From Pseudarthrobacter phenanthrenivorans Sphe3 (GTDB taxonomy: Bacteria; Actinomycetota; Actinomycetes; Actinomycetales; Micrococcaceae): a stretch of DNA of 64,000 bases. The notes beneath the pieces are model-generated. The model ran no database searches, was not told the origin of the DNA, and saw only the letters and a program-made list of their open reading frames with translations. A program made the translations under genes and the position numbers. The stretch lies in contig NC_015145.1 of NCBI RefSeq assembly GCF_000189535.1, positions 558,001-622,000 on the forward strand. Reading direction: 5' to 3'. Shown here piece after piece: positions 51,207 through 61,689 of this stretch (the first letter of the stretch is position 1; the number at the start of each line of letters is the position of its first letter).

Positions 51207-53357
51207 ATGACCGCGTGGAATGCCGATACCGAGGCTGCCGCATCCGAATCCGGTTCGATGACGGTGGTGGAGGGATCCTCGTTCTGTATTTCTTCCGGGA
51301 CCGGCGATATCAGTTCCGACGGCGGCACCAACGGTGCGTTCTTCCAGGACACGCGGATTATTTCCCACTGGGTGCTCAGGATCAACGGCGCCCTGCGTGA
51401 GCCGCTGGCAGCCCAGCGGCCCAGGCCTTTCGAAGCCACGTTCGTAGGCAGGGCCAAATGGCCGGGCGGCCGGTTCGACAGCCCCCTGGTGGTCCGGCAG
51501 AACCGCCATATCGGTCCGGGCCTGCAGGATGACATCACGCTGGAAAACTATTCGGCAGAGTCCGTGGATTGCGACATCGAACTCCTGGTGGACGCGGACC
51601 AGGCCGATCTTTTCGATGTTAAGGTGGGCCGCACCTCGCCGAACCCGAGCACTGTCCGCACTGTCCGTGACGGCCAGCTTGTCATCGAGAATTCCCACAA
51701 CGGGCAGCAGCGCGGAACTGCCGTCCGCGCCCGCGGCGCCGAGGTCAGCACGGATGGGCTCCGCTTCCGGGCAACCATACCGCCCCGGGGGAAGTGGGCC
51801 ACCAGCGTCATTGTGGTTCCGCTGATCAACGGCGAAGCACCGGCCGAAGCATTCAGCGAGGACGGCCTGCCGCACCACCGCGAGGGTGCCCGCCGGCACC
51901 GGCACTGGGAACAGAACGTTCCGCTGATCACGGTAACGGACAGCAACCTCCAGACGCTCCTTAACCGCAGCCAGAGTGACCTGGGGTCCTTGCGGATATT
52001 CGATCCGCACCATCCTGAGCGGGCGGCGGTGGCAGCGGGCGCCCCCTGGTTCATGGCACTGTTCGGCCGCGACTCCATCCTGTCGTCCTATATGAGCCTC
52101 ATGGTGGACCCGAAGCTGGCAGCCGGGACCCTGCAGACGCTGGCCAGCCTCCAGGGGACGAAAGTGGACACGGACACCGAGGAAGAACCCGGCCGGATCC
52201 CGCATGAGGTGCGCTTGGGGGTCACTGCCGGCCTGGCGTTGGGCGGCACCGCCTACTACGGCACCGCCGACGCCACCCCGCTGTTCGCTGCCCTGGTAGG
52301 TGAGCTCAGCAGGTGGGGGCTGTCAAAGGACATCGTTGAACCGTTGCTGCCCCATGTTGACCGTGCCCTGGAGTGGATCGGGAATTACGGCGACCGTGAC
52401 GGCGACGGCTTTGCTGAGTACCTCCGGCCCAATGACCACGGCCTGGTCAACCAGGGCTGGAAGGACTCGTGGGACGGCATCAACTTCGCCGACGGGACCA
52501 TGGCCGAGGCACCGATTGCCCTTTGCGAGGTCCAGTCCTACGTCTATTCCGCTTACGTGGGCCGGTCCCTCCTCGCCCGCTGGACCGGTGAGCGGGAGCT
52601 GGAACAGCATTGGGAGCAGCGCGCCGCGGAGCTGAAGGTTGCCTTCAACGAGAAGTTCTGGCTGCCGGACAAGGGCTACTTCGCCGTCGCCCTTGACAAG
52701 GACAAGCGCCCCGTGGACGCCTGCACCTCAAATATGGGGCACTGCCTGTGGAACGGCATTGTGGACGAGGATAAAGCGGCCTCCGTGGTGGAACACCTGA
52801 TGTCACCACAAATGTTCACCGGCTGGGGTATCCGGACGTTGGCCTCGGACATGGGCGCCTACAACCCGGTGAGCTACCACAACGGTTCCGTGTGGCCCCA
52901 TGACTCTGCGCTGGTGGCTACCGGGCTGATGCGGTACGGGTTCGTTGAGGAGGCACGCCGGGTTGCCACCGGAATTTTCGACGCCGCGGAGCATTTTGAC
53001 GGCAGGCTGCCCGAGCTGTTTTGCGGCTTTGATCGAGGCGAGTTTTCGGGACCGGTGCCGTATCCAACCGCCTGCTCACCGCAGGCTTGGGCTGCGGCCG
53101 CCCCTGTTCAGTTGGTCCGCGCCCTGCTCCGCTTCGATCCCGTTTTTACCCGCGGCGTGGTGCACCTGGCGCCGATCCTGCCGGAGGACGTGGGGGATTT
53201 CCAGGCCGAGAACGTGCTGCTGGACACGTCCCGCATCACCATCAGGGCCCATGGGACCCACGGCACCATCGACGGGCTCCCGCCCGGCCTCAAGCTTGTG
53301 GGCGACCCCCGGCCGCCGCTGGCGTATCCGCCCACGGGCGTGTGGCAGGGAGCGTAG
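51207..53357 (+). CDS. Amylo-alpha-1,6-glucosidase / glycogen debranching-type protein
   Basis: 716 residues. The first ~230 form the bacterial debranching N-terminal domain ('EGSSFCISSGTGDISSDGGT', 'FFQDTRIISHWVLRINGALR'). The rest is an (alpha/alpha)6 barrel: 'APWFMALFGRDSILSSYMSL', 'EEEPGRIPHEVRLG', 'NQGWKDSWDGINFADG', 'TSNMGHCLWNGIVDEDKA'. Members remove alpha-1,6 branches or act on related alpha-glucans, but many are uncharacterised. It follows the GT4 gene directly, with GAGAAGGAG before the ATG at 51207. Confidence 0.88.
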   Translation: MTAWNADTEAAASESGSMTVVEGSSFCISSGTGDISSDGGTNGAFFQDTRIISHWVLRINGALREPLAAQRPRPFEATFVGRAKWPGGRFDSPLVVRQNRHIGPGLQDDITLENYSAESVDCDIELLVDADQADLFDVKVGRTSPNPSTVRTVRDGQLVIENSHNGQQRGTAVRARGAEVSTDGLRFRATIPPRGKWATSVIVVPLINGEAPAEAFSEDGLPHHREGARRHRHWEQNVPLITVTDSNLQTLLNRSQSDLGSLRIFDPHHPERAAVAAGAPWFMALFGRDSILSSYMSLMVDPKLAAGTLQTLASLQGTKVDTDTEEEPGRIPHEVRLGVTAGLALGGTAYYGTADATPLFAALVGELSRWGLSKDIVEPLLPHVDRALEWIGNYGDRDGDGFAEYLRPNDHGLVNQGWKDSWDGINFADGTMAEAPIALCEVQSYVYSAYVGRSLLARWTGERELEQHWEQRAAELKVAFNEKFWLPDKGYFAVALDKDKRPVDACTSNMGHCLWNGIVDEDKAASVVEHLMSPQMFTGWGIRTLASDMGAYNPVSYHNGSVWPHDSALVATGLMRYGFVEEARRVATGIFDAAEHFDGRLPELFCGFDRGEFSGPVPYPTACSPQAWAAAAPVQLVRALLRFDPVFTRGVVHLAPILPEDVGDFQAENVLLDTSRITIRAHGTHGTIDGLPPGLKLVGDPRPPLAYPPTGVWQGA

Positions 53358-53397: not shown

Positions 53398-53931
53398 TCA
53401 GGGAAGGGGCTGCTCCAAGACAAAGTCGTGCTCCACGGTGCTGCCGAGCTGGAAGGACTTGGTGCCCACCTTCCGGAAGCCTGACTTCTCGTAGAAGCGG
53501 ATGGCCCGGGCGTTCTGGCTGTTGACCCCCAGCCAGACGCCGGCACCCCCTGAGGCGGCGGCGGCCTGCAGGCTGGCGCGCATGAGTTCGGCAGCCGCGC
53601 CCAAGCCGTGGTGCTCCGGGTGGACGTAGCACTTGCTCAGCTCCACCGATGGCGCCAGCGTCAGCACCGAGACCACATCCGGGTCTGTTGCAGGGCGGTT
53701 GACCAGCAGGCTGTACCCGAGCAGCCCATCCCCGGCATCGATCACCAGGATGGTGGCGCCGGGGTCGTCCAGGTAGCTGCGGAAGTGCCGTTCGCTGAGG
53801 GTGTTCTCCAGGTGCGCCGCAATGTCGCCAGGCGACGCGGACGGCGGGCACGCCAGCGGAAAGGTGACGGCCGCCAGGGCAGCCAGCGCCCCGGCGTCGT
53901 CCGTTGTTGCCTTTCTGATGGAGGAGGTCAT
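53398..53931 (-). CDS. GNAT family N-acetyltransferase
   Basis: A 177-residue acetyl-CoA-dependent acetyltransferase. The acetyl-CoA loop is in 'CYVHPEHHGLGAAAELMRAS' and the late strand in 'LGVNSQNARAIRFYEKSGF'. ATG 53931 was chosen; the longer frame upstream runs inside the neighbouring isomerase gene. It lies 28 bases downstream of the isomerase-epimerase gene and could be the last gene of that operon. The substrate is unknown. Confidence 0.88.
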   Translation of the reverse strand: MTSSIRKATTDDAGALAALAAVTFPLACPPSASPGDIAAHLENTLSERHFRSYLDDPGATILVIDAGDGLLGYSLLVNRPATDPDVVSVLTLAPSVELSKCYVHPEHHGLGAAAELMRASLQAAAASGGAGVWLGVNSQNARAIRFYEKSGFRKVGTKSFQLGSTVEHDFVLEQPLP

Positions 53932-53959
53932 GCAGGGATTGTACGTGCCGGCCTTGGGG

Positions 53960-54955
53960 TTACTGCTTGAACGCGGCGTCGAAGGAGGTGTTCGACGGCG
54001 GAAAGTCGAACTTCTTGAGCGCGGCGAGGGCTTCGGGCGCGCCGTGGAGACGGTCCATGCCGGCGTCCTCCCACTCGATGCTGATGGGGCCGTCGTAGCC
54101 GATGGCGGACAGGGCGCGGAAGGATGCCTCCCAAGGGACGTCGCCACGGCCCGCCGAGACGAAGTCCCAGCCCCGGCGCGGATCGCCCCAGGCCAGGTGC
54201 GAGCCGAGGACGGTGTTCCGGCCGGTCTGGCGGACCTTGGTGTCCTTGCAGTCCACGTGGTAGATCCGGTCCTTGAAATCCCAGATAAAGGAGACGGGGT
54301 CAATGCCCTGCCACATCATGTGGGACGGGTCCCAGTTCAGCCCGAACGCCTCGCGGTGCCCGATCGCCTCCAGGGTGCGGACGGTGGTCCAGTAGTCGTA
54401 GGCGATCTCGGACGGGTGGACTTCGTGGGCGAAGCGGACGCCGCACTCATCAAAGACGTCCAGGATGGGGTTCCACCGGTCGGCGAAGTCCTGGTAGCCG
54501 GCGTCGATCACCTTTTCCGGGACGGGCGGGAACATGGCCACGTACTGCCAGATGGAGGAGCCAGTGAACCCGACGACGGTGTCCACGCCCAGTGCCTTGG
54601 CGAGCCGTGCCGTGTGCTTCATTTCCTGGGCGGCCCTTTGGCGGACGCCTTCGGGATCGCCGTCACCCCAGACCTTCGCGCCGACGATGGCCTGGTGGCG
54701 GAAGTCGATGGGGTCATCGCAGACGGCCTGGCCCTTGAGGTGGTTGGAGATGGCCCACACCTTCAGGTTGTACTTCTCCAGGATTTCCAGTTTGGAGTCG
54801 ACGTACCCCGGCTCGTCCCAGCGCCAGGCGTCCAGATGGTCGCCGGACACCGCGATCTCGAGTCCGTCGTAACCCCAGCGGGAGGCCAGTTTTGCTACCT
54901 CTTCGAAGGGCAGGTCCGCCCACTGGCCGGTGAACAGGGTATAGGGGCGGGGCAT
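53960..54955 (-). CDS. Sugar phosphate isomerase/epimerase-like protein (AP-endonuclease 2 fold)
   Basis: A 331-residue TIM-barrel protein of the xylose isomerase-like/AP endonuclease 2 family. Metal-binding acids and His are visible in 'GVRFAHEVHPSEIAYDYWTT', 'LNWDPSHMMWQGIDP', 'IYHVDCKDTKVRQTG' and 'GPISIEWEDAGMDR'. The N-terminus 'MPRPYTLFTGQWADLPFEEV' leads into 'GYDGLEIAVSGDHLDAWRWD'. It lies one base after the dehydrogenase gene. Relatives include IolE-type dehydratases and keto-glycoside lyases. The exact reaction is unknown. Confidence 0.88.
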   Translation of the reverse strand: MPRPYTLFTGQWADLPFEEVAKLASRWGYDGLEIAVSGDHLDAWRWDEPGYVDSKLEILEKYNLKVWAISNHLKGQAVCDDPIDFRHQAIVGAKVWGDGDPEGVRQRAAQEMKHTARLAKALGVDTVVGFTGSSIWQYVAMFPPVPEKVIDAGYQDFADRWNPILDVFDECGVRFAHEVHPSEIAYDYWTTVRTLEAIGHREAFGLNWDPSHMMWQGIDPVSFIWDFKDRIYHVDCKDTKVRQTGRNTVLGSHLAWGDPRRGWDFVSAGRGDVPWEASFRALSAIGYDGPISIEWEDAGMDRLHGAPEALAALKKFDFPPSNTSFDAAFKQ

Positions 54956-54956
54956 G

Positions 54957-56159
54957 TCAGGCTCCTTCGGTCTGGGCAGGGGCAGCGACGGTGGCTGAGG
55001 ACTGTGCGGCTGGCTGCAGCTGGATAGTTGAACTGTGGGCGGCGGCGGATTCCTCCACGGCGGCCAGGACGCGCTGGACTTCCAGGCCGTCCTCGAACGA
55101 CGGCGAGGGCTCGGCGCCGGCGTCGATAGCCAGCAGGAAGTCGCGGATTTCGTGGGTGAAGGTGTGTTCCCAACCGATGGTGTGGCCCTGCGGCCACCAG
55201 GCATCCAGGTAGGGGTGTTCCGGTTCCGTGACGACGATCCGGCGGAACCCCTGTTCCCGGGCCGGGGCGCTGGAGTCCAGGAATGCCAGCTCGTTGAGGT
55301 TTTCCAGGTCGAAGCGCAGGGCGCCCTTGTCGCCGTAGACCTCGATCTGCAGGGAGTTCTTGCGGCCGGTGGCAACCCTGGATGCCTCCACTGAGGCGAT
55401 TGCCCCGGAGGCGAGGGCCAGCGTTGCCCATGCGGCGTCGTCGACCGTGACCTCTTCCAGCCCGTCGGCACCCGGCCGCCGGTCAACGAACGTCTGCAGA
55501 CGGCCGGAGACTTCCGTGACCTGCTCCCCGAGCAGGAACAGGACCTGGTCGATGGCGTGGCTGGCGATGTCGCCCAGCGCGCCGGAGCCGGCCGTTTCCT
55601 TTTTCAGCCGCCAGGTCATGGGCGCCTGGTCATCCGCGAGCCAGTCCTGCAGGTAGGCCGCGCGGACCTGCCGGACAGATCCCAGCCTGCCCTCGCTGAT
55701 CAGTTCCTTGGCCAGGGCCAGGGCCGGGACGCGGCGGTAGTTGAATCCCACCATGGACTGGACGCCCCTGGTCCTGGCTTCCTGGGCTGCAGTGGTCATG
55801 GCTTCGGCCTCTGCCAGGGTGTTGGCAAGCGGCTTTTCCAGCAGCACATGCTTGCCGGCTTCAAGGGCTGCCGTGGCGATCTCGGCGTGCATCCACCCTG
55901 GCGCGCAGATGTCCACCACATGGATGTCGTCCCGGTCCAGGACCGTCCGCCAGTCGGTGGCCGTTTCGGACCAGCCGTACCTGGCTGCAGCTTCGGAGAC
56001 CGCCGCGGCATCACGGCCCACCAGGACCTTCTGCTCAAAGGCAGGGACGTCGAAGAAACTGGCCACGTTCCGCCAGGCGTTCGAGTGGGCCTTGCCCATG
56101 AAGGCGTAGCCGATCATGGCCACGCCCAGCGGCGGCCGGTTTGCAGGCTCCATGCTCAT
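54957..56159 (-). CDS. Gfo/Idh/MocA family sugar dehydrogenase (first)
   Basis: A 400-residue NAD(P)-dependent oxidoreductase. The dinucleotide fold begins 'GVAMIGYAFMGKAHSNAWRN', 'LLEKPLANTLAEAEAM' holds the catalytic Lys of the EKP motif, and 'GSGALGDIASHAIDQVLFLL' has the active-site Asp/His. 'MVGFNYRRVPALALAKELI' and 'AAYLQDWLADDQAPMTWRLK' resemble levoglucosan dehydrogenase-type enzymes. It probably oxidises a sugar or glycoside hydroxyl. It overlaps the upstream gene by 4 bases and is followed after one base by the isomerase gene. Confidence 0.9.
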   Translation of the reverse strand: MSMEPANRPPLGVAMIGYAFMGKAHSNAWRNVASFFDVPAFEQKVLVGRDAAAVSEAAARYGWSETATDWRTVLDRDDIHVVDICAPGWMHAEIATAALEAGKHVLLEKPLANTLAEAEAMTTAAQEARTRGVQSMVGFNYRRVPALALAKELISEGRLGSVRQVRAAYLQDWLADDQAPMTWRLKKETAGSGALGDIASHAIDQVLFLLGEQVTEVSGRLQTFVDRRPGADGLEEVTVDDAAWATLALASGAIASVEASRVATGRKNSLQIEVYGDKGALRFDLENLNELAFLDSSAPAREQGFRRIVVTEPEHPYLDAWWPQGHTIGWEHTFTHEIRDFLLAIDAGAEPSPSFEDGLEVQRVLAAVEESAAAHSSTIQLQPAAQSSATVAAPAQTEGA

Positions 56160-57298
56160 GCCCCCTCCTCCAGTGTCAGCGTCTCGGGCGCCCAGTCTTC
56201 GGGGAGCGGCGCGGAGGCCGGTGCGGAGCTTTCAACGTCCACGAAGGTGCCCGAATCCATGGATTCCGAGATGGAGACCATGGCGTCCAGTACGTGGTAG
56301 GCCAGGTTGCCGGTGGCGCGGTGGAGGGTCCCGGCGCGCAGCGACCTTGCCATGTCCAGGACGCCCATGCCGCGCCCGTTCGCCGGGCCGGTGGCGGGGA
56401 TGGTGGTCCAGTCCTCGTCTCCTGCGCGCCAGAGCCTGACGTCGCCGTCGAAGTTGTTGGGATCCGGCAGGGAGAGGGTGGCCTCGGTGCCGGTGATCTC
56501 CACGAACCCCATCCGGGTGCGGGGGGATTCGAAGGAGAAGACGCTGTGGGAGGACGCGCCGGACTCGAACTGCGCCATGGCGGAGACGTGGGTGGGCACC
56601 TCCACGGTGAATTCCTCGCCGGCCTTGGGTCCGGAACCGATCACGCGGACATCCTTCGCCTTGGACCCGACAGCGGCCACCTTCCGGATGGAGCCGAAGG
56701 CCTGGACCAGCGTGGTCAGGTAATAGGGCCCCATGTCGAAGAGCGGGCCCGCACCGTACTGGAACAGGAAGGCCGGGTTGGGGTGCCAGGACTCCGGCCC
56801 GGGCGTCTGGAACGTGGTCATCCCGGTCAGTGGCGTGCCGATGTCGCCGCGCTGGATCAGCCGCAGCGCGGTCTGGAGTCCGGCGCCCAGGAAGGTGTCG
56901 GGAGCGCAGCCCAGGCGTATGCCCGCGGTATCGGCGGTCTTGAGCAGGCCCAGCCCGGATTCGCGGTCCAGCGAAAACGGCTTCTCCGTCCACACGTGCT
57001 TGCCGGCGTTGACGGCAGCGGTGGCCACCTCAACATGGGCTGCGGGGATGGTCAGGTTGACGATGATTTCGACGTCGGGATGGTTCAGTGCCTTCTCCAC
57101 CCCGCCCCATTCTGGGATGCCGTACTCCTTCGCCCGCGCCTCGGCGGCCTCCTCGAAGAGATCGGCGATGACGTGGACCTTGAGGTCCGGGAAGGTGGTG
57201 AGGTTGTCCAGGTACTGCTTGCTGATGTTGCCCGCGCCGACGACGCCGACGCCGACCCGGCCCTTGCGGAGCGACCGTGTGGATGCGGGGGTGCTCAT
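56156..57298 (-). CDS. Gfo/Idh/MocA family oxidoreductase (second)
   Basis: A 380-residue paralogous dehydrogenase. The NAD fold 'RVGVGVVGAGNISKQYLDNL' and the EKP motif in 'AGKHVWTEKPFSLDRESGLG' are clear; 'GAGPLFDMGPYYLTTLVQAF' holds the Asp-Met-Gly-x-Tyr active site rather than the DIASHxID pattern of the neighbour, so it belongs to a different subfamily. The two dehydrogenases probably act at different steps or different sugar positions. It overlaps both neighbours by 4 bases. Confidence 0.9.
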   Translation of the reverse strand: MSTPASTRSLRKGRVGVGVVGAGNISKQYLDNLTTFPDLKVHVIADLFEEAAEARAKEYGIPEWGGVEKALNHPDVEIIVNLTIPAAHVEVATAAVNAGKHVWTEKPFSLDRESGLGLLKTADTAGIRLGCAPDTFLGAGLQTALRLIQRGDIGTPLTGMTTFQTPGPESWHPNPAFLFQYGAGPLFDMGPYYLTTLVQAFGSIRKVAAVGSKAKDVRVIGSGPKAGEEFTVEVPTHVSAMAQFESGASSHSVFSFESPRTRMGFVEITGTEATLSLPDPNNFDGDVRLWRAGDEDWTTIPATGPANGRGMGVLDMARSLRAGTLHRATGNLAYHVLDAMVSISESMDSGTFVDVESSAPASAPLPEDWAPETLTLEEGA

Positions 57299-58041
57299 GC
57301 CTTGATTCCTTCGCCTGCGGCCGTCAGGAACGACAGGCTCTCGTTGATGCCTTCAAAGATGTCTCCGGCGTAGTCGTCGAATTCCACCACGCCCACCTCC
57401 AGCGACTTGGCGGCGGCGATGACGTCAAGGACCGGAAGCTTGCCCTGGCCTGCCGGCTGCTGTGCCTTGGTGTCCGTGGTCAGCGGTCCGTCCTTGATGT
57501 GGATGAGCTTCACCCGGTCGCCGAGCCTGGTGAGGATGTCCACCGGGTCCTGGCCGCCTACGGCAACCCAGTAGGTGTCCACTTCCAGCACGAGTTCCGG
57601 GTCGAGCAGGTCGGCGAAGTACTCCAGCGCGGTCCTGCCCTCGATGGTGGACTCAAGCTCCCACTGGTGGTTGTGATAGCCCACCCGGATACCGTACCCG
57701 GCCCCCTTTTTGGCGGCAGCGTTCAGCTGGGCGGCCGTTTCCTGGATGTCTTCGGCCGACTGCCAGCGCTCTGCCGGGATGAAGGGGTCGATCACGGTGG
57801 TGATACCCAGTTCCTTGGCGGCGGCGAAGATCCCGTCCTGGTCCTGGCTCAACAGGGGCGCGTGGCCCGAGGGTGCCGTGAGCCCGTTTTCCTTCAGGGC
57901 TGCACCGAGTTCCTTGGCCATGGCCACGAAGTTGTAGGGCTCCACCTGCGTGAAGCCGATTTCCGCAACCCTGCGGATGGTCCCCTTCAGGTCTTCCTGG
58001 ACGGCGTTCCGCAGGGTATAAAGCTGGATTGAGTAGGACAA
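57295..58041 (-). CDS. Sugar phosphate isomerase/epimerase-like protein, operon leader
   Basis: A 248-residue AP-endonuclase-2-fold TIM barrel. 'LSYSIQLYTLRNAVQEDLKG' is the first strand, 'GYHNHQWELES' and 'LVLEVDTYWVAVGGQDPVDI' carry metal ligands, and 'KLIHIKDGPL' the next acid. It is much shorter than the other isomerase-like gene in the operon. TTG 58041 is preferred: GGGAGA lies just upstream and the family begins here; an ATG-like frame further upstream adds 23 unrelated residues. It is the first gene after the shared regulatory region. Confidence 0.88.
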   Translation of the reverse strand: MSYSIQLYTLRNAVQEDLKGTIRRVAEIGFTQVEPYNFVAMAKELGAALKENGLTAPSGHAPLLSQDQDGIFAAAKELGITTVIDPFIPAERWQSAEDIQETAAQLNAAAKKGAGYGIRVGYHNHQWELESTIEGRTALEYFADLLDPELVLEVDTYWVAVGGQDPVDILTRLGDRVKLIHIKDGPLTTDTKAQQPAGQGKLPVLDVIAAAKSLEVGVVEFDDYAGDIFEGINESLSFLTAAGEGIKA

Positions 58042-58108
58042 GATGTCTCCCGGTCGCTGGGGCGTGTGCTGACTGCTGTGATCTGGGTCTACCTGCAAAG
58101 CTAGGGGC

Positions 58109-58134
58109 ACTTTTGCCGGGCGTCAAGCAAAAGT
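58109..58134. promoter_or_regulatory. Candidate ROK operator 1
   Basis: The perfect 8-base arms ACTTTTGC (58109-58116) and GCAAAAGT (58127-58134) are separated by 10 bases, between the divergent isomerase and ROK starts. Confidence 0.5.
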
Positions 58135-58143
58135 TGCCGCCGT

Positions 58144-58174
58144 GACATAAATAAGTGCATCTGCTATCTATGTC
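58144..58174. promoter_or_regulatory. Candidate ROK operator 2
   Basis: GACATAAATA (58144-58153) and TATCTATGTC (58165-58174) form 10-base arms with one mismatch and 11 bases between. The site ends 3 bases before the ROK start codon, so a bound repressor would block its own expression. Confidence 0.5.
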
Positions 58175-58177
58175 TCT

Positions 58178-59404
58178 ATGACTAAGACAGCCGGTCAGCG
58201 GACCGCTCCCGAACCGCCGGGAGTACAGGGCCGGGCCGGAGACATCTTCCAACTCCTCCGGGACGGCAAGGCCCGTACCCGGGCCGAGCTTGCCGGGACC
58301 ACCGGCCTTGCACGGTCTACCGTTGCCGCCAGGATCGACGCCCTGATCGCGTCGGGACTTGTTGGTCCCGCAGGTGAGGCCAGCTCCAGCGGCGGGAGGC
58401 CGCCGTCGCGCTTTGCCTTTAAACCGGCCGCCCGGGTGGTGCTGGCCGTGGACGTTGGGGCAACCCACGTGGCCGTGGCCGTCACGGACCTGGGCGGCGC
58501 CATCCTCGCTGAACACCGCCTGGCCCAGCAGGTGGCGGACGGGCCGGAGAAGGTCCTGGGACTCGTGACAGGGCAAGCAGCAGACCTGCTGGCGGCGGCG
58601 TCGCGGGACCCTGCGGATCTCGCCGGAGTGGGGATCGGACTTCCAGGGCCGGTGGAGCATGACTCGGGACGGCCGGTCAAGCCGCCCATCATGCCGGGCT
58701 GGGACGGCTTCGACGTGGTCCGGTTCGTCCAGCGTTCACTGCCTGTCCCCGTGCTGGTGGACAATGACGTCAACATCATGGCGCTCGGGGAGCGTTCGGC
58801 GTACTGGCCGGATGAGGACAACCTGCTGTTCGTGAAGGTTGCCACCGGCATCGGTGCGGGCATCATCAGCAGCGGTGAACTGCAGCGGGGCGCCAACGGC
58901 ACTGCCGGGGACCTGGGCCACGTGCGGGTCCCCCGCGGGGACGACGTGCTGTGCCGCTGCGGGAACTACGGGTGCCTGGAAGCACTCGCCTCAGGGCCGG
59001 CGATCGCGGCCGCCCTCCGGCAGAAGGGACTGGACGCTGCGCAGGGGGCGGACGTGCTTGATCTTGTGGCACACGGCAACCCGCACGCCATCCAGGCCCT
59101 CCGCCAGGCCGGCCGTGACCTGGGGGATGTGCTGGCCACTGTGGTGAACCTCCTGAACCCCTCGGTCATCGTCGTCGGCGGCAGCATCGGGGACTCGGGG
59201 GAACACCTCGTGGCAGGTGTCCGGGAGGTGGTCTACCGGCGCTCGCTGCCCCTGGCCACGTCCCAGCTCCGGATCGGATTGTCCAGGGCGGGGGACAGGG
59301 CGGCCCTCTTCGGGGCCAGCCAGCTGGTCACCCGGCACGTCCTGTCACCGGCCGCCATCGAGGCAACCCTGCAGCCGGCCGCCGGAATTTCCGCTACGGC
59401 GTAA
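58178..59404 (+). CDS. ROK family transcriptional repressor
   Basis: A 408-residue ROK regulator. The winged helix 'TRAELAGTTGLARSTVAARI' is at about residues 33-60. The ROK domain has 'VLAVDVGATHVAVAVTDLGG' (nucleotide loop), 'VPVLVDNDVNIMALGERSAY' (catalytic-type Asp) and the zinc motif 'CRCGNYGCLEALAS'. Kinase-type residues remain, but with the DNA-binding head the protein is most likely a sugar-responsive repressor like NagC or XylR. It is divergent from the dehydrogenase-isomerase operon, with two palindromes between, and overlaps the convergent dehydrogenase by 11 bases. Confidence 0.93.
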   Translation: MTKTAGQRTAPEPPGVQGRAGDIFQLLRDGKARTRAELAGTTGLARSTVAARIDALIASGLVGPAGEASSSGGRPPSRFAFKPAARVVLAVDVGATHVAVAVTDLGGAILAEHRLAQQVADGPEKVLGLVTGQAADLLAAASRDPADLAGVGIGLPGPVEHDSGRPVKPPIMPGWDGFDVVRFVQRSLPVPVLVDNDVNIMALGERSAYWPDEDNLLFVKVATGIGAGIISSGELQRGANGTAGDLGHVRVPRGDDVLCRCGNYGCLEALASGPAIAAALRQKGLDAAQGADVLDLVAHGNPHAIQALRQAGRDLGDVLATVVNLLNPSVIVVGGSIGDSGEHLVAGVREVVYRRSLPLATSQLRIGLSRAGDRAALFGASQLVTRHVLSPAAIEATLQPAAGISATA

Positions 59405-60495: not shown

Positions 60496-61689
60496 ATGAG
60501 CGGCCGGTTGTCCTCCCGGATTCCCAAAAGTTGGGTGCTGCTGGCCTGTATTGGCCTGCTGGCGTTGAACCTCCGGGGCCCGTTTGTGGCGGTGGCGCCG
60601 GTTGTGGGCCCCATGCAGGCCGATCTTCAGTTCTCACCCGCCATGCTGGGGCTGCTGACCAGCATCCCGGTGCTGTGCTTTTCCCTGGCTGCGCCCTTGG
60701 CCTCCCTGGCCGCACGGAAGTTCGGTGCTGAGTTTGCCGTAACGCTGACCATCCTCGGCGTGCTGGCCGGGGTGCTCCTCCGATCCGCCGGCGGCCCTGC
60801 CCTGGTCATGGGCGGCACTGTGGTCATCGGCCTGGCCATCACCATCGGCAACATTGCCGTTCCGCTGATCATCCGGCGCGACTTTGCGCCCGCCCGCCAG
60901 GGAACGGCCATGGGCATCTACACTGCCGCCCTGAACATCGGTTCGTTCCTCACCTCAGTGGTGACAGCGCCGCTTGCTGCCGTGGCGGGCTGGCAGTTTG
61001 CCCTGGGGTCGGTGGCGGTGCTTGCTGTGGCGGCCATAGTTTTCTGGACCCTGGCTGTGGGAGCGCGGCGGGCGTTCCTCATAGCGCCCGACGACGGAAC
61101 GGGCACCCGCCTGCCACCGGTCGCCGGCGCGAGGTGGACCACCGCGGGCCTGACGGCCGGCTTTGCCGGGCAGGCATTCTCCTACTACGGGGTGACGGCC
61201 TGGCTGCCCACGTTCCTCTCCGACGAACTCGGACTGAGCCCTTCCGGGGCGGGCGCGGGGTCTTCCCTGTTCCAGATCCTTGCCATCGCCGGCGGGCTGG
61301 GGGTTCCGCTGGCGGCCCGGCTGGCGAGCACGACGACGGTTGCCGTCACCCTGGGCGTGATGTGGCTGACCGTCCCTGTGGGCCTGCTCCTGGCACCGCA
61401 GTGGTGGTGGATGTGGTCCTCCGTAGGCGGAGTGGCGCAGGGCGGCGGAATCACGTTGATTTTTATTGCCATCATCAAAGTCGCCCGGGACCAGGCCTCT
61501 GCAGGGCGGATGTCCGCTGTGGTGCAGGGCGTTGGCTACGCCATTGGCGCGGCGGCCCCGCCGCTGCTGGGCCTGGTGCACGATACGTCGGGGTCCTGGA
61601 CTCCGGCGCTCCTGGTCGTCCTCGCCTCAGTGTTGACCTTCTTCCTCGCCACCACCCTCGCCGTGCGAAGGGTGCCGAAAGGCCGCTAA
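60496..61689 (+). CDS. MFS transporter, CynX/NimT (cyanate porter) family
   Basis: A 397-residue polytopic membrane protein with about 12 membrane helices. The N-terminal 'LALNLRGPFVAVAPVVGPMQ' and 'MLGLLTSIPVLCFSLAAPLA' are hallmarks of the cyanate permease (CP) family, as in CynX and NimT. It likely exchanges a small anion or drug. No cyanase gene lies nearby. It is divergent from the hydroxyacid dehydrogenase and ends before a cluster of palindromes. Confidence 0.9.
   Translation: MSGRLSSRIPKSWVLLACIGLLALNLRGPFVAVAPVVGPMQADLQFSPAMLGLLTSIPVLCFSLAAPLASLAARKFGAEFAVTLTILGVLAGVLLRSAGGPALVMGGTVVIGLAITIGNIAVPLIIRRDFAPARQGTAMGIYTAALNIGSFLTSVVTAPLAAVAGWQFALGSVAVLAVAAIVFWTLAVGARRAFLIAPDDGTGTRLPPVAGARWTTAGLTAGFAGQAFSYYGVTAWLPTFLSDELGLSPSGAGAGSSLFQILAIAGGLGVPLAARLASTTTVAVTLGVMWLTVPVGLLLAPQWWWMWSSVGGVAQGGGITLIFIAIIKVARDQASAGRMSAVVQGVGYAIGAAAPPLLGLVHDTSGSWTPALLVVLASVLTFFLATTLAVRRVPKGR

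Follow-up and report, generated by a model that had tools for sequence, protein, structure and literature searches.

In Bacillus smithii, the levoglucosan (Lgd) pathway follows a logic of oxidation, elimination, hydration and reduction that has been reconstituted, according to the portion of the source available to us (PMC7676230). The same four-step logic is proposed for an operon of Agrobacterium tumefaciens in the available part of its description (PMC10628242). Pseudarthrobacter phenanthrenivorans Sphe3 carries lgdA-lgdB1, and the accessible sections of a third study state that lgdB2 and lgdC were not identified in this strain and ask whether other enzymes complete the pathway (PMC10066097). 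Here we describe an operon of Sphe3 located in a window of 64,000 nucleotides (the whole stretch of DNA analysed, contig NC_015145.1, positions 558,001 to 622,000; plain coordinates below refer to this window). The operon encodes two dehydrogenases of the Gfo/Idh/MocA type (DH1 and DH2) and two TIM-barrel proteins (TIM1 and TIM2). We consider it fairly likely that it serves a non-hydrolytic, NAD-balanced release of glucose from an O-beta-glucoside, with DH2 as the oxidant and DH1 as the reductase.

The four genes form a single operon on the minus strand in the order TIM2-DH2-DH1-TIM1, divergent from a gene for a ROK-family repressor. The first gene encodes TIM2 (57295..58041, 248 aa, TTG start), a predicted 3-keto-beta-glucoside beta-eliminase (1,2-lyase), and is followed by those for DH2 (56156..57298, 380 aa), the predicted glycoside C3 oxidant, DH1 (54957..56159, 400 aa), which belongs to a sister clade of levoglucosan dehydrogenase and is the predicted 3-keto-glucose reductase, and TIM1 (53960..54955, 331 aa), a protein of the SCO6571/2zds family and predicted 2-hydroxy-3-keto-glucal hydratase. 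TIM2 and DH2 overlap by 4 bases, as do DH2 and DH1, and 1 base lies between DH1 and TIM1. PF01261 is present in both TIM-barrel proteins, PF01408 together with a GFO_IDH_MocA C-terminal domain in both dehydrogenases. One operon unites two dehydrogenases with an eliminase-like and a hydratase-like TIM barrel. Open reading frames and Pfam domains confirm the four minus-strand frames which an initial annotation of this DNA had placed opposite the ROK gene, and the motifs FNYRR, AYLQDW and SGALGDIASHAID, which it had likened to levoglucosan dehydrogenase, are indeed found in DH1.

In the proposed pathway, DH2 would use NAD+ to oxidise C3 of the glycoside, and TIM2, a TIM barrel of the Mn type, would then take the C2 proton and expel the aglycone, leaving 2-hydroxy-3-keto-glucal. 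Hydration by TIM1 would yield 3-keto-glucose, which DH1 would reduce to glucose, thereby regenerating NAD+. The ROK protein would repress the operon via a 26-base inverted repeat lying over the promoter. Since the intermediates are common to all such pathways, TIM1 and DH1 could also be used by other front ends, including the genome's own levoglucosan dehydrogenase and eliminase, which are encoded elsewhere. We infer each of these reactions, the order of the dehydrogenases, the binding of ROK to the repeat and the sharing between pathways from homology, fold, conserved residues, gene order and the inverted repeat itself. C3 oxidation followed by elimination of the keto-glycoside had already been suggested for this locus; the lyase fold and residues of TIM2 and the hydratase match of TIM1 support it.

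Among solved structures, the top sequence match of TIM2 is AtOGE (8bvk), at about 30% identity, and its closest solved folds are the 3-keto-beta-glucopyranoside-1,2-lyases AL1 (8tcd) and BT1 (8tct), so named in their PDB titles. Residues H123, H125, D155 and H181 of TIM2 align with His132, His134, Asp163 and His189 of AtOGE and are conserved without exception in all 109 hits (the residue counts given here and below include a few places fetched twice). In AtOGE, His132, Asp163 and His189, together with His134, constitute the metal ligands and the base, as given in the available part of PMC10628242. Glu233, a weak fourth ligand of AtOGE, falls outside the alignment, and to name TIM2 E220 as its counterpart is a guess. 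By its fold as well as by its metal and base residues, TIM2 is probably a 3-keto-beta-glucoside lyase. The fold of DH2 does not discriminate between an oxidant and a reductase. In one genome (G104:C1:580764-581491), TIM2 is matched as two overlapping pieces in different frames, reflecting either a frameshift in the gene or an erroneous assembly.

With a threshold of E 1e-25, TIM2 is found in 55 of 149 genomes of the family, and with a threshold of E 1e-60, TIM1 is found in 87 of them; counted by genus, these are 16 and 22 of 32. All 55 TIM2 genomes also hold a TIM1 match, which in one of them (G144) contains two stops, and in 41 of the 55 TIM1 lies within 10 kb of TIM2; the hypergeometric value for this co-occurrence, 2e-18, ignores shared descent. 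The neighbourhoods compared below comprise 40 family loci hand-chosen among the 55 TIM2 genomes, 20 TIM1 loci chosen among 107 TIM1 places, and the top 80 among at least 580 DH2 loci, some of which are cut by contig ends and which overlap in part with the 40. Gene calling was crude and the locus counts rest on tblastn tables, in which Gfo, TIM and importer labels denote best hits above 55 bits to an in-house reference set rather than curated calls.

The assignment of TIM1 relies on homology and on operon context. TIM1 matches 2zds (Streptomyces coelicolor SCO6571, titled 'putative DNA-binding protein') with E 1e-165 and, over residues 18-318, 8ro4, named 2-hydroxy-3-keto-glucal hydratase, with E 8e-36; its residues E178, H180, D209, H212, H233 and E294 are kept in 84 of 84 hits. 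TIM1 orthologues sit with three different kinds of eliminase. Levoglucosan operons containing TIM1 together with LgdB1, LgdA and an LgdC-like gene are present on an Arthrobacter agilis plasmid (L027, TIM1 83% identical) and in genome G037 (L096), and TIM1 follows a GMC-family oxidase and a pair resembling C-glycoside deglycosidase (CGD) both in the Sphe3 genome itself (L024, 78%) and in Novosphingobium (L032, 73%). LgdA (E 1e-160 or better, with at most 12 candidates scored per genome) occurs in 8 of the 149 family genomes, all of which have TIM1. Comparison of coordinates places TIM1 within 5 kb of LgdA in four of these (G121, G084, G037, G108), and the other four (G000, G039, G018, G078) carry an operon of the window type. 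TIM1 occurs, in other words, in operons that make 2-hydroxy-3-keto-glucal, and we predict it to be the hydratase of this compound. The TIM1-type genes of levoglucosan operons may equal the LgdB3 mentioned in the available part of PMC10066097. A further TIM-barrel-like gene, labelled TIMy by tblastn, lies near TIM1 in eight loci (L054, L057, L078, L084, L091, L093, L113, L152) and is a candidate for yet another eliminase.

Gene neighbourhoods suggest that DH2 is the oxidant and DH1 the 3-keto-glucose reductase. All 40 loci retrieved with TIM2 have TIM2 immediately upstream of DH2, and so do 73 of the 80 best loci retrieved with DH2. In 8/40 and 50/80 loci, respectively, some of them cut by contig ends, the pair is followed by no further labelled dehydrogenase and no TIM1. 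TIM2-DH2 therefore looks like one unit, and because the oxidant must suit the substrate just as the eliminase does, DH2 is the preferred candidate for this role. DH1 plus TIM1 follow the pair in 21/40 and 19/80 loci, a recurrence in related genomes that places the gene order above chance. DH1 without TIM1 follows in 6/40, and DH1 is the next labelled dehydrogenase in 27/40 and 19/80. Elsewhere this slot is occupied by GfoR, an LgdC-like enzyme, accompanied by TIM1 in 3/40 and 8/80 and without it in 1/80; TIM1 alone follows in 2/40 and 2/80. A Deinococcus aquaticus locus likewise contains TIM2, DH2, TIM1 and an LgdC-like gene. Since the slot of DH1 is exchanged with an LgdC-like enzyme in relatives, DH1 would be the reductase, and in L024 its gene comes after those for a GMC oxidase and a CGD-type eliminase. 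Naming GfoR after LgdC is based on its position as second dehydrogenase in the levoglucosan operons L027 and L096 and on residues 95 and 185 of the L027 protein, which are Glu and His; LgdC has Glu95 and His185, according to the accessible part of PMC10066097.

Regarding the proteins themselves, DH1 matches 4h3v (E 7e-139) and the levoglucosan dehydrogenase structure 6a3f (E 2e-86), is 42-44% identical to LgdA proteins, and has Lys109, Asp197 and His201 in 70/70 hits. For DH2, all solved relatives are distant (4gqa, E 4e-19); the protein shows Lys106, Asp188 and Tyr192 in 126/126 hits, with Tyr replacing the usual His, a feature in which it presumably resembles glucose-fructose oxidoreductase. 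In a tree of 61 hand-picked rows, DH1 groups with LgdA (support 99/96) and not with the GfoR/LgdC clade. DH2 sits on a long branch that joins GfoQ, which makes its deep placement uncertain. What we claim for DH1 is the functional replacement of an LgdC-type reductase, not membership in its clade.

The same pathway with the two roles exchanged, DH1 oxidising C3 of the glycoside and DH2 reducing 3-keto-glucose, is rather unlikely, yet it is the alternative that survives best. In favour of the exchange, the sister clade of DH1 is that of levoglucosan dehydrogenase, which acts as an oxidant, and DH1 has retained the Lys/Asp/His set. In Deinococcus aetherius, in addition, a GMC oxidase is encoded together with TIM2, TIM1 and a DH2 relative; this relative is the sole Gfo enzyme in the 19 kb seen, where neither DH1 nor an LgdC-like gene appears, and the arrangement would fit DH2 as a reductase. 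Against the exchange speak the tracking of the eliminase by DH2, the alternation of DH1 with the LgdC-like GfoR and its place behind the GMC oxidase and CGD-type eliminase in L024. Consequently, it is doubtful that the levoglucosan-dehydrogenase-like enzyme starts the pathway, as had been hinted at the outset: the likeness is real, but the DH1 slot is LgdC-like in several relatives and TIM2 is usually paired with DH2. Besides the tree and the D. aetherius locus, further observations weigh against our assignment of DH2 as oxidant within a beta-glucoside pathway. No TIM2 is seen upstream in 7 of the 80 DH2 loci, and in locus L023 a DH2 relative (44%) accompanies DH1 and TIM1 without TIM2. TIM2 shares only 22-30% identity with the characterised lyases in fold alignments, and in one TIM2 fold comparison AtOGE itself ties with IolE proteins by Z. 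TIM1 is without a close characterised relative, and DH1 and TIM1 may together handle a separate substrate, since among the 20 loci retrieved with TIM1, 16 (L077-L090, L093, L094) combine these two with a ribose-type importer and have neither TIM2 nor DH2.

An interconversion in which the two dehydrogenases flank a 3-keto-glucoside epimerase, so that one glycoside is converted into another without being broken, appears very unlikely; YcjR (6wn6) is among the solved-fold matches of TIM2, and we take the layout of two dehydrogenases and a TIM barrel to resemble that of ycjS-ycjR-ycjQ in Escherichia coli. The cyclitol option raised by the initial annotation, an inositol-type operon combining dehydrogenation with inosose dehydration, is extremely unlikely, given that all four proteins remain far below the curated NCBIfam cut-offs: TIM1 and TIM2 reach 46.6 and 44.9 bits against 290 for IolE, DH1 and DH2 132.5 and 67.1 bits against 355 for IolG. 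That the operon is the levoglucosan operon itself has a practically negligible probability, as DH1, its resemblance to levoglucosan dehydrogenase notwithstanding, scores 346.1 bits against the 650-bit LevoglcsnDh cut-off (NF052479), compared to 749.4 for the true LgdA of this genome, whose gene at C1:1125496-1126665, beside LgdB1 and importer genes, contradicts this reading.

With respect to the substrate, fold and sequence point to the class of beta-glucosides, the sugar probably being glucose, and the earlier expectation of an unphosphorylated compound is supported. GH5-type genes are found in 4 of the 40 family loci, and GH3 genes adjoin the Deinococcus copies of the operon. ThuA genes (trehalose utilisation, PF06283) are found in 7/40; these loci (L039, L041, L045, L047, L050, L059, L060), in which ThuA and a neighbouring Gfo gene lie near the operon, hint at disaccharide substrates. 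As the initial annotation had noted, the operon itself contains no transporter, but this does not hold throughout the family. Genes for a solute-binding protein and a permease lie near the operon in 22 of 40 TIM2 loci (in 18 of these with more than 40% identity to importer references), either behind the ROK gene, before TIM2 or within the operon, and since they adjoin it so often the missing transporter is a local condition. There is also a nearby major facilitator superfamily (MFS) transporter of the CynX/NimT type (60496..61689, plus strand), which scores 202.9 bits for TIGR00896, below the cut-off of 406, and which is a possible uptake gene outside the core set. A gene of this type occurs in 6/40 loci, and in L037, L038 and L054 a relative comes directly after the ROK gene.

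The ROK protein (58178..59404, plus strand; PF00480, E 6e-62, plus a winged helix by Pfam) is encoded in 34 of the 40 related loci. Between it and TIM2 lies a 26-base inverted repeat with perfect 8-base arms, ACTTTTGC-N10-GCAAAAGT (58109..58134, without strand), which is the probable, sequence-predicted ROK operator. Of 36 upstream stretches, 22 contain it when up to 3 mismatches are allowed; 6 of the 40 family loci, having no labelled TIM2 frame, were omitted from this set. When each stretch was shuffled 100 times, the best match had on average 6.6-7.2 mismatches, and the minimum ranged from 2 to 5; for L051 this minimum equals the observed 2. Among the 14 stretches lacking the repeat are loci under LacI control or into which importer genes have been inserted. 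Because the operator occurs with 0 mismatches at a single site in the genome, the ROK protein appears to act as a local repressor. A candidate operon promoter, TTGACG-N17-TAGCTT (58098..58126, minus strand), was read by eye and not reported by the promoter scan; it overlaps the operator, and its TTGAC element lies within the conserved repeat.

Two neighbours on the far side of the operon stand apart from the conserved set. A GNAT acetyltransferase gene (53398..53931, minus strand; PF00583) begins 28 bases past TIM1 and is labelled behind TIM1 in L040 only. A glycogen-debranching-like protein (GDE_N_bis plus MGH1-like domain) is encoded on the opposite strand at 51207-53357; the other family loci compared show no labelled relative.

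The Sphe3 genome contains further loci for keto-glycosides. Its levoglucosan dehydrogenase is identical to 6a3f in 390 of 390 residues, and 6a3f is one of the entries of the enzyme that the available part of PMC10066097 assigns, as 6A3I, to Sphe3. The levoglucosan locus (L025:4855-10669, G000 C1 about 1120854-1126668) comprises importer genes, LgdB1 and LgdA, and by tblastn labels no TIM1- or LgdC-like gene stands beside them. A C-glycoside-type operon (L024:2549-10076, G000 C1 about 174548-182075) joins a GMC oxidase and a CGD alpha/beta pair to a second DH1 and a second TIM1. The oxidase and the pair match 7qf8 (GMC oxidoreductase, E 0) and chains A and B of 7dnm (AgCarC2; 3e-223 and 6e-82), respectively. 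An additional CGD alpha relative lies at C1:168286-169278. A third paralogous set (L023:7562-14952) consists of DH1, TIM1, the DH2 relative, probable importer genes and a LacI-like gene, with no TIM2.

Altogether, we regard TIM1 and DH1 as candidates for the missing levoglucosan hydratase and reductase of Sphe3. We tentatively suggest that keto-glycoside catabolism in these Actinobacteria is modular, with a general back end (TIM1 plus DH1 or an LgdC-like reductase) that would also act in trans, and that this operon or its two paralogues supply the levoglucosan steps reported to be missing in this strain. Interchangeable oxidant-eliminase front ends would then feed it: DH2-TIM2 for O-beta-glucosides, LgdA-LgdB1 for levoglucosan, and GMC oxidase-CGD for C-glycosides. 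For the annotation of PF01261 'sugar phosphate isomerases' and Gfo/Idh/MocA 'oxidoreductases', this would suggest the rule that front-end pairs track the substrate and back-end pairs are shared. The gain lies in named candidates for both steps reported as missing from the Sphe3 pathway for levoglucosan, a sugar from wood burning.

We did not find this gene set described in the literature searched, a limited search with subscription papers mostly outside it. CGD-type C-glycoside operons share the downstream TIM1 and, in this genome, DH1. C-glycoside deglycosidase has a beta subunit, according to the accessible part of PMC8563793, unlike the operon in the window, which does not qualify as of the CGD type: three beta references gave no hit between 48001 and 64000. 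AL1 and BT1, known here from their PDB titles, stem from Alistipes and Bacteroides and share with TIM2 the low identity given above. In relation to levoglucosan dehydrogenase 6a3f, DH1 forms a sister clade, but it is below the family cut-off and belongs to a different operon. The GlycDH-AtOGE-AtHYD-Gfo operon of A. tumefaciens has counterparts of TIM2 in AtOGE and of TIM1 in the hydratase 8ro4, as well as a proposed Gfo reductase, but its oxidant is the flavoenzyme GlycDH, in place of which we predict an NAD-type Gfo enzyme here (PMC10628242, available part). The lgdA-lgdB1-lgdB2-lgdC cluster of B. smithii S-2701M also encodes two Gfo/Idh/MocA enzymes and two TIM-barrel-type proteins for four steps; it differs in its 1,6-anhydro sugar substrate and in its ABC importer genes and LacI regulator, as far as the accessible text describes it (PMC7676230). 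The predicted eliminase of Sphe3 is, in turn, of the AtOGE/AL1 type, and DH2 forms a clade of its own with Tyr in place of His. The four-step chemistry is thus already known, and the gene combination described here is a variant of it.

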